From positions 171,689 through 235,688 of the forward strand of contig JACQZI010000010.1 in the NCBI GenBank assembly GCA_016207825.1: a stretch of 64,000 nt of DNA, given 5' to 3'. The stretch is from Planctomycetota bacterium. Its GTDB lineage: Bacteria; Planctomycetota; MHYJ01; JACQXL01; JACQZI01. The notes below the pieces were generated by a model that was given only the letters and a program-made list of their open reading frames with translations, ran no database searches and was not told the origin of the DNA. Of the stretch, positions 17,592 to 29,779 are shown one piece after another (within the stretch, counting starts at the first letter, position 1; every line of letters begins with the position of its first letter). Made by a program: the position numbers and the translations under genes.

Positions 17592-17780
17592 ATTTATCTC
17601 CTTTTATCAGTATCACGGTATTTTACTTTTGCTTTAAGCCCTGTCAATCTAATATGAACCGGCAGTTGCTGAAAGAAACGCCTGCCGATTTTAAACCCGC
17701 CCCGCCCATCATATTTTTCTTGCGCTTAATATGGGTATTTACTAAAATACTTGCTCTCAGCAAAAACAAGGAGACCTTAT

Positions 17781-19058
17781 ATGAAAAAGAAACTGTTCTT
17801 CCTGGTTTTACTCTTATGCATCGCGCTCATCCCGCTTACAATAGCCGGCGAACAAAAGCTTAAGCTTAAATGGGAAAAAACATCGGACGACGCCCTGAAA
17901 GCCGCCCAGCAAACGAATAATCCGGTATTGCTCTTTTTTGTCTGCGGGGCCTGAGGGCTGGAATCCGGAGCTGCCAGCCGTGTGCTGGCAAACGACAAAT
18001 TCATCGAAGCCGCCCAAGGTTTCCATTTAGTCAACGGCACTGAAAAAGACGCGGAGAAATTCAGGGTTCCCCCTGACACGAAAAAATGCGGCATTGTCAT
18101 AGTCGATCCCTTCGGCGACGAACTGGCCATGGGCAGGATATACGACCCCGACGCCCCGGAAAACCTGGCACTGGCAATCATCAGCAAGGCACTTAAGATT
18201 TATGATTCCGAAATAAGCTGGCTGGATTCCGTCGAAAAGGGAATCGCCAAGGCGAAAAAGAGGGATAAGCCGGTCCTGGTTTTCATGGCCGACGATAAAA
18301 AGCCCTCCCAGCAAACCCTGCAAGCGCTGAACAGCCGCGAACTGATGCGCTTGCGGAAATATTTTGTATTTGTCAAAATAGCACATGACAAAGAATCTGA
18401 AGATGCGAAGAAATGGTCGGCGTCATCCGCCCCGTATATTGTCATCCTCAACCCTTTTGAAGAATCAGGCAAAGACCCGATGAAAAAGATATCCGGGCAA
18501 AAAAACGGCAAAACACTCCAGAAGACACTGGAGGAAGCAAAAAAAGCCTATGACCAGATAAAGGAAAAAAGGGCCAAAACAGAGCAGGTTTTCGCTCTCA
18601 ACAGCTCATCATTCGAGGACGGGGAAATGATTCCCAACAGGCATTTTAAAGGCGAAAACAGCCCCTCGCCGAATATGTCCTGGCCGGAAACGGAAGGCGC
18701 CAAATCTTACGCGATTATCTGCGCCAATTCCGAAACAATCGATAACCTCGCCTGGATAACCTGGGTGATTTTTAACATCCCGGAAAAAACAAACGCGCTA
18801 CCGGAAAATATCTCGAAAGGCGCCGAACCGAATGAAGTCAAGGGCGCCAAACAAGGCGTTAATAACCTCGGCAGCACCGGATACGCCGGCCTGATAGCCA
18901 CCAGCGGACGGGGAAGCCAAGAATGTTATTTTACGCTTTACGCGCTTGATACGATACTTGAATTAAAAGCCGGGATAAAAGCCGCGGAATTGCTGAAGGC
19001 CATGGAAGGCCATATTATCAAACAATCCACGCTGGTCGGGCTCTATAAGAATAATTAA
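17781..19058 (+). CDS. Probable selenoprotein: exported thioredoxin-like/PEBP fusion with in-frame TGA
   Basis: Start ATG 17781 follows AAGGAG. The frame is open to 19058 apart from one TGA at 17952-17954, giving 425 residues if read as selenocysteine at residue 58. Order: signal peptide (1-23), thioredoxin-like domain (about 30-135) with FFVCGA-U-GLES, a second thioredoxin-like domain (about 145-255, KKRDKPVLVFMADDKKPSQQ), then a PEBP/YbhB-type domain (about 275-425, beginning FALNSSSFEDGEMIP). The reading aligns without gaps to F-x-A-x-W-C-G-x-C of thioredoxins, placing Sec at the first catalytic Cys; it is also CxxU. A hairpin fitting a bacterial SECIS follows. The alternative is a nonsense mutation giving a pseudogene. 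TGA is an ordinary stop elsewhere, so global recoding is excluded. Confidence 0.75.
17973..17989 (+). promoter_or_regulatory. Candidate bacterial SECIS hairpin
   Basis: GCCAGC-CGTGT-GCTGGC is a perfect 6-bp stem with a 5-nt loop that has G at its second position. The loop lies about 26 nt after the TGA, within the distance known for bacterial SECIS elements. An alternative stem GGCTGG (17956-17961)/CCAGCC (17974-17979) overlaps it. The hairpin lies wholly in coding sequence, as SelB-dependent decoding requires. Confidence 0.6.
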
Positions 19059-27032: not shown

Positions 27033-27998
27033 ATGCCGGTAACAAAAATGCTCGAAAAATGGTCGGGTCAAGTCCAGGAAATCACTATCGGCGCAACCAA
27101 ATCAGAAGGCGGCTCCAGAACCAAATCCGTAAAAGTCGGCGGGGAAACCGCCATGCCTTTCCTCCATGAAGATGGAAAGATGCCCAATAAGCCCCTTATT
27201 GCCATGGAAGTCCTGGACTGGGTTCCGCCGGACTGGCACCCGGTTCTCAAGGAAACCTTTAAAGACGTCTTAAATAATCCCGCCAAATGGGCAAAGAAAT
27301 GCCAGGATGAATACGGAGCTGACCTTATCTGCCTCAAACTCCTGGGCGCCCATCCAGAAAATAATAATACCTCCACGGCAGATATTGTCAAAACCGTCAA
27401 GGCCGTCAAAGATGCCGTCGGTTTACCCATCATTATCTGGGGATGCGGCAACGCGGAAAAGGATAACCAGCTTTTCCCGGCAATCAGCCAGGCATTGAAA
27501 GGCGAAAGAGCCCTTCTGGGGACAGCTACCCAGGATAACTACAAAACGCTCGCCGCCACCTGCATCGCGGATGGGCATAACATCATCGCGGAAAGCCCGC
27601 TTGATATAAATATCTGCAAACAGATCAATATCCTGCTTTCCGATATGGATATGCCCTTTGAACGCATCGTCATCTTCCCGACGACCGGGGCAATCGGTTA
27701 TGGATTTGAATACGCTTATTCCATAATGGAACGCACCCGGCTGGCCGCCCTGGGCGGCGACAGCGCCATGGCCTGCCCTATAATCGGAGTCGTCTCTTCC
27801 GAAGCCTGGAAGACCAAGGAAGCCAAGGCGCCCGAATCCGAAATGCCCGGCTGGGGCGCACTGACCGAAAGGGCCATTTCCTGGGAAACAATAACTGCCT
27901 GCGGATTCCTGCTCGCCGGTGCCGATATATTAATTATGTACCACCCGAAATCGGTGGAACTGCTTAAGAAATATATCGAGCAGATGATGGCACGCTAA
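27033..27998 (+). CDS. cdhD: Acetyl-CoA decarbonylase/synthase subunit delta (corrinoid iron-sulfur protein small subunit)
   Basis: A 321-residue TIM-barrel protein. It begins VTKMLEKWSGQVQEITIG, then has KSVKVGGETAMPFLHEDG and PLIAMEVLDW, sequence typical of the CdhD/AcsD delta subunit. With the gamma subunit it forms the corrinoid protein that passes the methyl group from methyl-tetrahydrofolate to acetyl-CoA synthase in the Wood-Ljungdahl pathway. The gene starts behind AAGGAGAG and is followed 38 nt later by fhs, so C1 entry and methyl transfer are encoded together. The gamma subunit, CODH and ACS genes are not in the window. Confidence 0.93.
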   Translation: MPVTKMLEKWSGQVQEITIGATKSEGGSRTKSVKVGGETAMPFLHEDGKMPNKPLIAMEVLDWVPPDWHPVLKETFKDVLNNPAKWAKKCQDEYGADLICLKLLGAHPENNNTSTADIVKTVKAVKDAVGLPIIIWGCGNAEKDNQLFPAISQALKGERALLGTATQDNYKTLAATCIADGHNIIAESPLDINICKQINILLSDMDMPFERIVIFPTTGAIGYGFEYAYSIMERTRLAALGGDSAMACPIIGVVSSEAWKTKEAKAPESEMPGWGALTERAISWETITACGFLLAGADILIMYHPKSVELLKKYIEQMMAR

Positions 27999-28036
27999 AG
28001 GCCATCATCCCTGCCCTAAAGCGAAAGGGAAAAACA

Positions 28037-29779
28037 ATGGCAGAATCAACCTCCAAATCCAAAAGCGGAGCGAAGCGTCGTCCCGAGGATGTCAAACCCG
28101 ATATCGAAATCGCCCAAGCGGCAAAGATAAAACCGATTACCCAAATCGCCAAGACTCTCGGCATTGACGAACGCTATATCGAGCCATACGGGCATTACAA
28201 AGCCAAAATCAGCCTTGATTTGCTGGATACGCTTAAGAATAAGCCGCTCGGGAAATATATAGTCGTCACGGCAATCACCCCAACACCCCTGGGAGAAGGC
28301 AAGACCGTCACAACAATCGGGCTTTCCATGGCATTGAATCACATCGGTAAAAACGCGGTTACCTGCATACGCCAGCCCTCGCTCGGTCCGGTCTTCGGGA
28401 TTAAAGGCGGCGCGGCCGGCGGCGGATATTCCCAAGTCATCCCGATGGAGGATTTCAACCTGCACCTAACCGGCGATGTCCACGCGGTCAGCATCACCCA
28501 CAATCTCTTGGCCGCATTCATTGATAACAGCATCTACCACGGTAACAAGCTTGATATCGACCCGAAAAATATCTTCTGGCGGCGGGTGGTCGATATCAGC
28601 GACCGCGCGCTCAGGAATATAATCACCGGTCTTAACGACGAGAAACTGCAGAGAGAAACCGGGTTTGATATCGCGGTTGCCTCCGAAGTAATGGCGATAC
28701 TCGCGCTGACGGCGGACCTGAAGGATTTAAGGAAACGGCTGGGAAGAATCGTGGTCGCCACGGATAAAAATGGAAAGCCGGTAACGGCGGACGACCTTAA
28801 ATGCGCCGGTTCCATGGCGATACTGATGAAAGACGCGCTTAAGCCGAATCTCCTGCAGACCCTGGAAAACACGCCCTGTTTCGTGCACGCGGGGCCTTTC
28901 GGGAACATCGCGCACGGGAACAATTCCATCATTGCCGACCGGATGGCGCTGCGCTTGAGCGATTACGTGGTGACGGAAAGCGGATTCGGGGCGGATTGCG
29001 GCGCGGAGAAATTCATCAATATCAAATGCCGGGTGAGTGGGTTAAAACCTGATTGCGCGGTGATAGTCGCTTCCATCCGCGCGCTCAAGATGCACGGAGG
29101 CCTGGGCAAAATAGTCGCCGGGAAGCCCCTGCCCGAAGAGCTGAAGAAAGAAAACCTCGGCGCCTTGGAAAAAGGCTGCGCCAACCTTGAGAAACACATA
29201 GAAAATATGCTGCTCCACGGCGTGCCGGTGGTGGTGGCTATCAATAAATTCACCACGGATACGGAAAAGGAAATCGAACTGGTCAGGGAAATCGCCCGGA
29301 AAGCCGGCGCCCAAGACGCCCTCACCTGCGATGTCTGGGCGAACGGCGGCGCGGGCGGAACGGACCTGGCCATGGCGGTCGCCAAGGCCGCGGACAAGCC
29401 TTCCAAATTCAGGTTCCTCTACGAAACGGAATGGCCCATAAAGAAAAAGATTGAGACTATCGCCACCAAAATCTACGGCGCCAAGGACGTTCACTACGAG
29501 CCCCTGGCAGAGGAAAAGATTAAAATGTATACGGAACTCGGCTATGACAAATTGCCGATTTGCATGGCAAAAACGCATCTTTCCCTGTCACACGACCCTG
29601 AATTAAAAGGAAGGCCTTCGGGATTTACTTTGCCGGTAAGGGACGTCCGCGCTTCGATAGGAGCAGGGTTCCTGTATCCATTATGCGGGAAGATGATGAC
29701 CATGCCGGGTTTGCCGAGCAATCCGGCCGGCGCGCATTATGATATCACGGATGAAGGAAAGGTGCTGGGACTGTTCTAA
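28037..29779 (+). CDS. fhs: Formate-tetrahydrofolate ligase
   Basis: A 580-residue enzyme of full length. Motifs include the P-loop TPTPLGEGKTVTTIGLSMAL (about residue 85), RQPSLGPVFGIKGGAAGGGY, and the conserved C-terminal region LPICMAKTHLSLSHDP. It activates formate with ATP onto tetrahydrofolate, the first tetrahydrofolate step of the methyl branch of the Wood-Ljungdahl pathway, and also feeds purine and serine C1 pools. The extra N-terminal 25 residues (STSKSKSGAKRRPEDVK) are low complexity. It is cotranscribed with cdhD. The ribosome binding site is weak (AAAGGGA). Confidence 0.97.
   Translation: MAESTSKSKSGAKRRPEDVKPDIEIAQAAKIKPITQIAKTLGIDERYIEPYGHYKAKISLDLLDTLKNKPLGKYIVVTAITPTPLGEGKTVTTIGLSMALNHIGKNAVTCIRQPSLGPVFGIKGGAAGGGYSQVIPMEDFNLHLTGDVHAVSITHNLLAAFIDNSIYHGNKLDIDPKNIFWRRVVDISDRALRNIITGLNDEKLQRETGFDIAVASEVMAILALTADLKDLRKRLGRIVVATDKNGKPVTADDLKCAGSMAILMKDALKPNLLQTLENTPCFVHAGPFGNIAHGNNSIIADRMALRLSDYVVTESGFGADCGAEKFINIKCRVSGLKPDCAVIVASIRALKMHGGLGKIVAGKPLPEELKKENLGALEKGCANLEKHIENMLLHGVPVVVAINKFTTDTEKEIELVREIARKAGAQDALTCDVWANGGAGGTDLAMAVAKAADKPSKFRFLYETEWPIKKKIETIATKIYGAKDVHYEPLAEEKIKMYTELGYDKLPICMAKTHLSLSHDPELKGRPSGFTLPVRDVRASIGAGFLYPLCGKMMTMPGLPSNPAGAHYDITDEGKVLGLF

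Follow-up and report, generated by a model that had tools for sequence, protein, structure and literature searches.

The gene on the forward strand near position 18,000 of the 64,000-nucleotide stretch analysed here (the window) very probably has selenocysteine (Sec) inserted at codon 58, an in-frame TGA at 17952-17954. The strong support for this reading is comparative evidence, not the downstream hairpin alone. As a new branch, the gene extends a selenoprotein superfamily widespread in its phylum, Planctomycetota, and is not a new kind of system. In the mechanism proposed, SelB and tRNA-Sec would read UGA 17952 as selenocysteine, with insertion directed by a hairpin 24 nt downstream. The predicted product would be an exported tandem thioredoxin-fold protein with an active domain 1, a second domain devoid of CxxC and, in the window copy, a fused PEBP domain.

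Reading frame and domain organisation

The first-pass annotation described a single in-frame TGA in an otherwise open 425-codon frame with a good ribosome binding site and a signal peptide. Read-through translation bears this out: from ATG 17781 to TAA 19056-19058 the only internal stop is TGA 17952-17954, with GGAG about 8 nt 5' of the ATG and a signal-peptide-like hydrophobic start after it (Table 1). The codons TGC GGG GCC precede the TGA and give C-G-A-U, in the context PVLLFFVCGAUGLESGAASRVLA. Among the window frames that can be read through a TGA and have no fewer than 40 codons ahead of it and 60 beyond it, this one continues by far the longest past the TGA (368 codons; the next, 168).

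Table 1. Features of the candidate selenoprotein gene, in window coordinates
Feature	Position	Strand	Basis
Selenoprotein gene of 425 codons, codon 58 read as Sec (very probable)	17781..19058	+	Read-through translation; two paralogues with same-column TGA
RBS-like AAGGAG region before ATG	17768..17773 (approximate)	+	Sequence
N-terminal signal peptide (putative)	17781..17849, end approximate	+	Hydrophobic N-terminus after MKKK; judged by eye, not by predictor
Thioredoxin-like domain 1, residues about 31-140, contains C55 and U58	17871..18200	+	AF2 model; AGR2/AGR3/ERp19/DsbH matches; PF13899 on paralogues
TGC, Cys55, partner Cys of C-x-x-U (probable)	17943..17945	+	Cys in 3/3 paralogues
TGA, Sec58 (very probable), first-Cys column of thioredoxin CxxC	17952..17954	+	Alignment with paralogues and relatives
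SECIS-like hairpin TGCCAGC-CGTGT-GCTGGCA, loop 17979-17983	17972..17990	+	Pairing, recoding, paralogue and family comparison
Thioredoxin-like domain 2 without CxxC, plus C-terminal helix	18201..18578	+	PF13899 E 5.4e-13; AF2; VIA-align
PEBP (YbhB/YbcL-like) domain	18630..19049	+	PF01161 E 4.7e-22; TIGR00481; PDB PEBPs E 3e-13

Thioredoxin_7 (PF13899) matches the window protein (P0001) with 49.3 bits, best over domain 2 (gathering cut-off 27 bits), and PF01161 matches its C-terminus with 79.2 bits (cut-off 24 bits). Of the Trx-Trx-PEBP fusion proposed earlier, the PEBP part stands, being genuine as judged from its sequence matches; the fusion is confined to the window copy, and none of the other fetched loci carries a PEBP fusion. 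The domain matches the YbhB/YbcL type (PF01161, TIGR00481 and PDB PEBPs) and differs from it in being joined to thioredoxin domains and in not keeping the DPDAP and HW ligand-site segments (WITW), which look degenerate. The gene's neighbours, an MntP-type pump downstream and an upstream gene of no assigned family on the other strand, give no functional hint.

Read with the standard code, the locus yields precisely a 57-residue exported peptide and a 358-residue ORF from GTG 17982, and TGA is the ordinary stop of 6 of the 31 long ORFs in the window. Both observations would suit a true stop, in a decaying pseudogene or between two genes. This is nevertheless very improbable: in the AF2 model the split would separate the first strand of the thioredoxin fold from the rest, and the comparisons below argue against it as well.

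Paralogues with the same in-frame TGA

Two paralogues lie on other contigs of the same genome (L019:1237-2166 and L020:1498-2409), with 44% identity to the window gene. Each contains exactly one TGA, in a column identical to that of the window gene, in a frame that is otherwise open. Their sites, PVLIFSTCDAUAVQQEEASRVLA and LVLVFSTCDCUAVQRAEASRVLA, share C-x-x-U with the window protein (CGAU, CDAU and CDCU), with a Cys at -3 in all three. The three genes form one clade (tree support 100/99). Both paralogues match PF13899 over domain 1 (38.0 and 37.7 bits; cut-off 27 bits), have no PEBP domain and are located in unrelated gene neighbourhoods. The clade, hereafter the CxxU clade, was seen in a single genome, and a scan of the collection queried with the three paralogues found no relatives.

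The presence of the TGA in the same column of two paralogues makes a sequencing error or recent decay very unlikely, and its occurrence in three open frames speaks against a true stop. A single base change would turn the window codon into one for Cys or Trp, and the first-pass annotation had itself named sequencing error as a way in which it might be wrong. An assembly or sequencing error for TGC, TGT or TGG has nonetheless a vanishingly small probability, as the identical TGA recurs at two more places in the genome, and other genomes have it at dozens of loci.

Selenocysteine machinery of the host genome

The assembly (2.89 Mb, 97.6% complete, 0.05% contamination) that holds the window gene also holds selA, selB (above cut-off), tRNA-Sec (selC) and selD, the set for which a search had been proposed. 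The tRNA-Sec has the anticodon TCA and adjoins selB; selD adjoins selA. SelD (L023:1799-2845, minus strand) has its own in-frame TGA in the active-site loop (CVGUAGK), the position known for Sec in SelD, and would be a Sec-containing SelD. At gathering scores Rfam matched only tRNA-Sec and tRNAs, and no SECIS family over the window gene.

A complete sel machinery is a further argument against termination at the TGA. It bears also on a reading of the codon as Trp or another amino acid, through a code change or a suppressor, which could appeal to the Trp that thioredoxins carry beside their first Cys. The chance of this is almost nil: the column aligns with Cys, not Trp, long window ORFs end in TGA, Trp in the gene itself is written as TGG, and the genome has a tRNA-Sec with anticodon TCA. 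The paralogues, stop usage and alignment led to the rejection of sequencing error, pseudogene and code change alike.

Selenium use had initially been linked to a Wood-Ljungdahl metabolism. The window does encode a CdhD-type CODH/ACS delta-type subunit (at 27033) adjoining a formate-THF ligase (at 28037; the pair spans 27033-29779), which fits that pathway. The evidence for Sec is, however, the sel genes and not the acetogenic ones, and TIGR01591 picked up no formate dehydrogenase alpha subunit (FdhA) in the assembly.

The downstream hairpin

The 17-nt hairpin GCCAGC-CGTGT-GCTGGC reported at the correct distance is present; it can be extended to 19 nt (17972-17990), and its loop starts 24 nt past the TGA. 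Published bSECIS rules give an upper stem of 4-16 bp, a loop of 3-9 nt with a G in its first two positions, a distance of 16-37 nt from the TGA and a minimum free energy of at most -7.5 kcal/mol (PMC13188914). The window hairpin lies within all of these limits (7 bp, loop CGTGT, 24 nt, -11.0 kcal/mol), and the G at loop position 2, followed by U, is in line with the published rule (PMC13188914). The hairpins of the paralogues are weak on their own (-7.0 kcal/mol), slightly short of the -7.5 guideline.

By itself the window hairpin stands out only moderately. Folding 17949-18000 as RNA against dinucleotide shuffles gave z -0.12; this energy comparison being uninformative, synonymous-codon recoding was used in its place. 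Of 2000 recoded versions of each gene, 36 (window gene), 58 and 143 matched the native hairpin energy; coming from paralogues, these tests are not independent of one another.

Comparison between genes is more telling. The paralogue hairpin is GCAAGC-CGTGT-GCTTGC against GCCAGC-CGTGT-GCTGGC in the window, a compensatory A-T to C-G change in the stem with both substitutions at silent third positions (GCA/GCC, Ala; CTT/CTG, Leu). The hairpin codons AGC, CGT and GTG are the same in all three genes, and codons are shared in only 24 of 97 conserved columns. Over 63 Sec sites of the superfamily, registers 49-52 contain 43 hairpins (at least 6 pairs, centred 24.5-26 nt past the TGA), about four times the 11.6 expected from synonymous recoding; this is the less biased test. 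Twelve sequences of one register have 95.8% paired stem cells and 12 two-sided changes, and none of 500 shuffles scored as high, a figure inflated by the choice of these rows for their pairing. Two relatives (L103 and L106) have the same loop on a different stem, GGAGAACCGTGTGTTCTCC.

The Sec column in the wider thioredoxin-like family

In a survey of the phylum, 174 of 392 genomes had a match at E <= 1e-12, many of these matches being plain Trx-like proteins. In the relatives fetched, 61 distinct sites have U in the U58 column, 12 have C and 8 another residue, counts that are biased since the loci were chosen partly, and preferentially, for containing a TGA; the Cys-bearing relatives include no close orthologue of the CxxU clade. 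The homologue comparison called for at the TGA codon thus returned Sec or Cys. Together with the SECIS signal, this Cys/Sec exchange counts against a true stop.

Most U sites are UxxC in an ordinary thioredoxin context (TAEWUGPC, TSDGUPPC), which places U58 at the first Cys of CxxC. Both earlier statements, that the gene encodes CxxU and that U stands at the first Cys of thioredoxin, therefore hold, the Cys of CxxU sitting three residues before the CxxC motif. Among the fetched members of the superfamily the same column is found in the motif types UxxC, CxxUxxC, CxxU, CxxC, CU and USTSSU.

Among the closest known families is the curated NF041199, the Trx7/PDZ (seleno)protein, tabled as CxxU (PMC13188914, Table 1). 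It has a Trx_7 domain, Sec at the same column and Cys at -3, its loci showing FRCVPUVPC or the Cys form LRCIPCEEC, with Cys at both -3 and +3 and either Sec or Cys between them at 0. Its members have the +3 Cys and a PDZ part, whereas the window clade kept the -3 Cys and lost the +3. The three window-clade proteins score 23.3, 20.2 and 16.1 bits against it and do not reach the curated cut-off of 300, and no member was found in the genome itself at E <= 1e-15. Uncurated UxxC Trx-like selenoproteins of Planctomycetota (for example L026, L043 and L045) share the tandem Trx layout, the Sec column and a nearly identical hairpin distance; they differ in having UxxC (UGPC/UPPC) instead of CxxU and, in those aligned, a retained cis-Pro (GYPT). 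The VPGUxxT family NF041383 matches weakly over the 25 residues preceding the site (E 5.7e-4), and differs in its motif and in score (19.6 bits against a cut-off of 275).

A scan with the UxxC relatives as queries gave nine named loci, seven of them titled Planctomycetota. A weaker relative of these proteins occurs in Pontiellaceae bacterium B12219 (L127; 32% over 78 residues). Other relatives of the window gene (L027, L028, L029 and L033) have Sec in the contexts GKMGUTIS, GKGCUGGT, GGGCUGDT and GAGCUGGT; L028, L029 and L033 have a CUxxT layout similar to that of NF041383. A second gene in L027 (L032, minus strand) has a pair of in-frame TGAs (STUSTSSUAK), and the hairpin behind each agrees with the bSECIS loop and spacing rules.

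Structure and putative redox mechanism

Confidence in the AF2 model is high for most of residues 30-275 (blocks mostly >90) and dips to 75-84 around residues 51-70. In the model residues 49-54 form a strand, C55 to U58 lie in a loop and a helix starts at 59. The model does not resolve the PEBP part (pLDDT <50), which is assigned from its sequence. Domain 1 resembles AGR2, AGR3, ERp19 and DsbH at Z 12.7-13.0 (AGR2, Z 12.9, 2.6 A, 114 aligned residues; AGR3 and ERp19, Z 12.7; DsbH, rmsd 8.5 A). AGR2 is a one-Cys protein. AGR2/AGR3, TXNDC12 (ERp18/ERp19) and DsbH are without Sec and have other active-site motifs. For domain 2 the matches are ordinary thioredoxins (Z about 12-13, rmsd mostly 2-3 A).

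In this fold Sec58 would take the place of the first, nucleophilic Cys of thioredoxin, where helix alpha-1 begins. The +3 Cys is absent from the window clade, and the cis-Pro of GYPT-type relatives is replaced in domain 1 by Gly in all three proteins (TKK[CG]G in the alignment), so that the classical CxxC/UxxC plus cis-Pro signature of a thioredoxin oxidoreductase is not found; the change of cis-Pro to Gly may alter the chemistry. Because the +3 Cys is missing and the -3 Cys kept, Cys55-Sec58 is the likely working pair. Signal-peptide residues aside, the only Cys in P0002 is that of the CDAU motif and the only ones in P0003 are the two of CDCU. As the mature paralogues thus have no further Cys (P0003 having one extra inside the motif), the pair is expected to form a reversible selenylsulfide. 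The protein could then act as a periplasmic thiol/selenol oxidoreductase or as a peroxide/electrophile reductase. That the mechanism involves the Cys55-Sec58 pair is somewhat more probable than the alternatives taken together.

Sec may also be inserted and act alone or with a partner protein, in a peroxidase-like or one-selenol manner, with no intramolecular Cys55-Sec58 pair. The closest neighbours in the tree carry Sec in other contexts that lack a +3 Cys (GCUGGT, MGUTIS, STUSTSSU), and the cis-Pro has been lost in the CxxU clade, both of which are consistent with such activity. Against it, the -3 Cys is retained throughout the CxxU clade as well as in the Trx7/PDZ family (FRCVPUVPC), and the paralogues have no Cys outside the motif, signal-peptide residues aside; this mode of action is the less likely one. 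The preferred reading, with a Cys55-Sec58 pair, can be extended to a more specific picture that stands an even chance of being right: a new selenoprotein clade with a shifted redox pair, formed by Sec and the upstream -3 Cys in the strand-to-helix loop, acting as an exported Cys-Sec redox switch; the lipid-binding-type PEBP domain fused to one copy would be controlled by this switch or would aim it.

Novelty and significance

A 2026 review counts 119 prokaryotic selenoprotein families and subfamilies and assigns proteins of one architecture to separate subfamilies when their Sec motifs differ (PMC13188914). On this basis the CxxU tandem-Trx clade qualifies as a new subfamily and the Trx-Trx-PEBP form as a new architecture; a literature search turned up no description of a Trx-PEBP selenoprotein. 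The first-pass view that the protein is of an unrecognised type holds only in part, since the protein falls in a broad Trx_7-like superfamily that includes the curated NF041199, itself tabled with CxxU (PMC13188914).

Standard annotation would break up all three genes of the clade at the TGA, and the redox centre would go unnoticed. Among the members fetched, this exported Planctomycetota Trx-like superfamily combines one Sec column and a near-constant hairpin distance with several motif types. It offers a good natural series in which to ask what makes a redox pair change side and when Sec replaces Cys.

A second candidate beside selA

Between selD and selA of the same genome lies a lipoprotein-like ORF (L023:2940-3626, minus strand; G000:C36) with an in-frame TGA (TYGUGGACNGYSWLIPK) and no Pfam or NCBIfam match. 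A homologue in a genome of the same genus (L129 in G001; 61% over 109 aa) also adjoins selA and has its TGA at the same place. Common to both is the downstream fold GGGTATT-CGTGGTT-AATACCC, a 7-bp hairpin with the loop CGTGGTT. The ORF is likely a new selenoprotein in the sel locus, unrelated to the window gene and possibly more novel than it.
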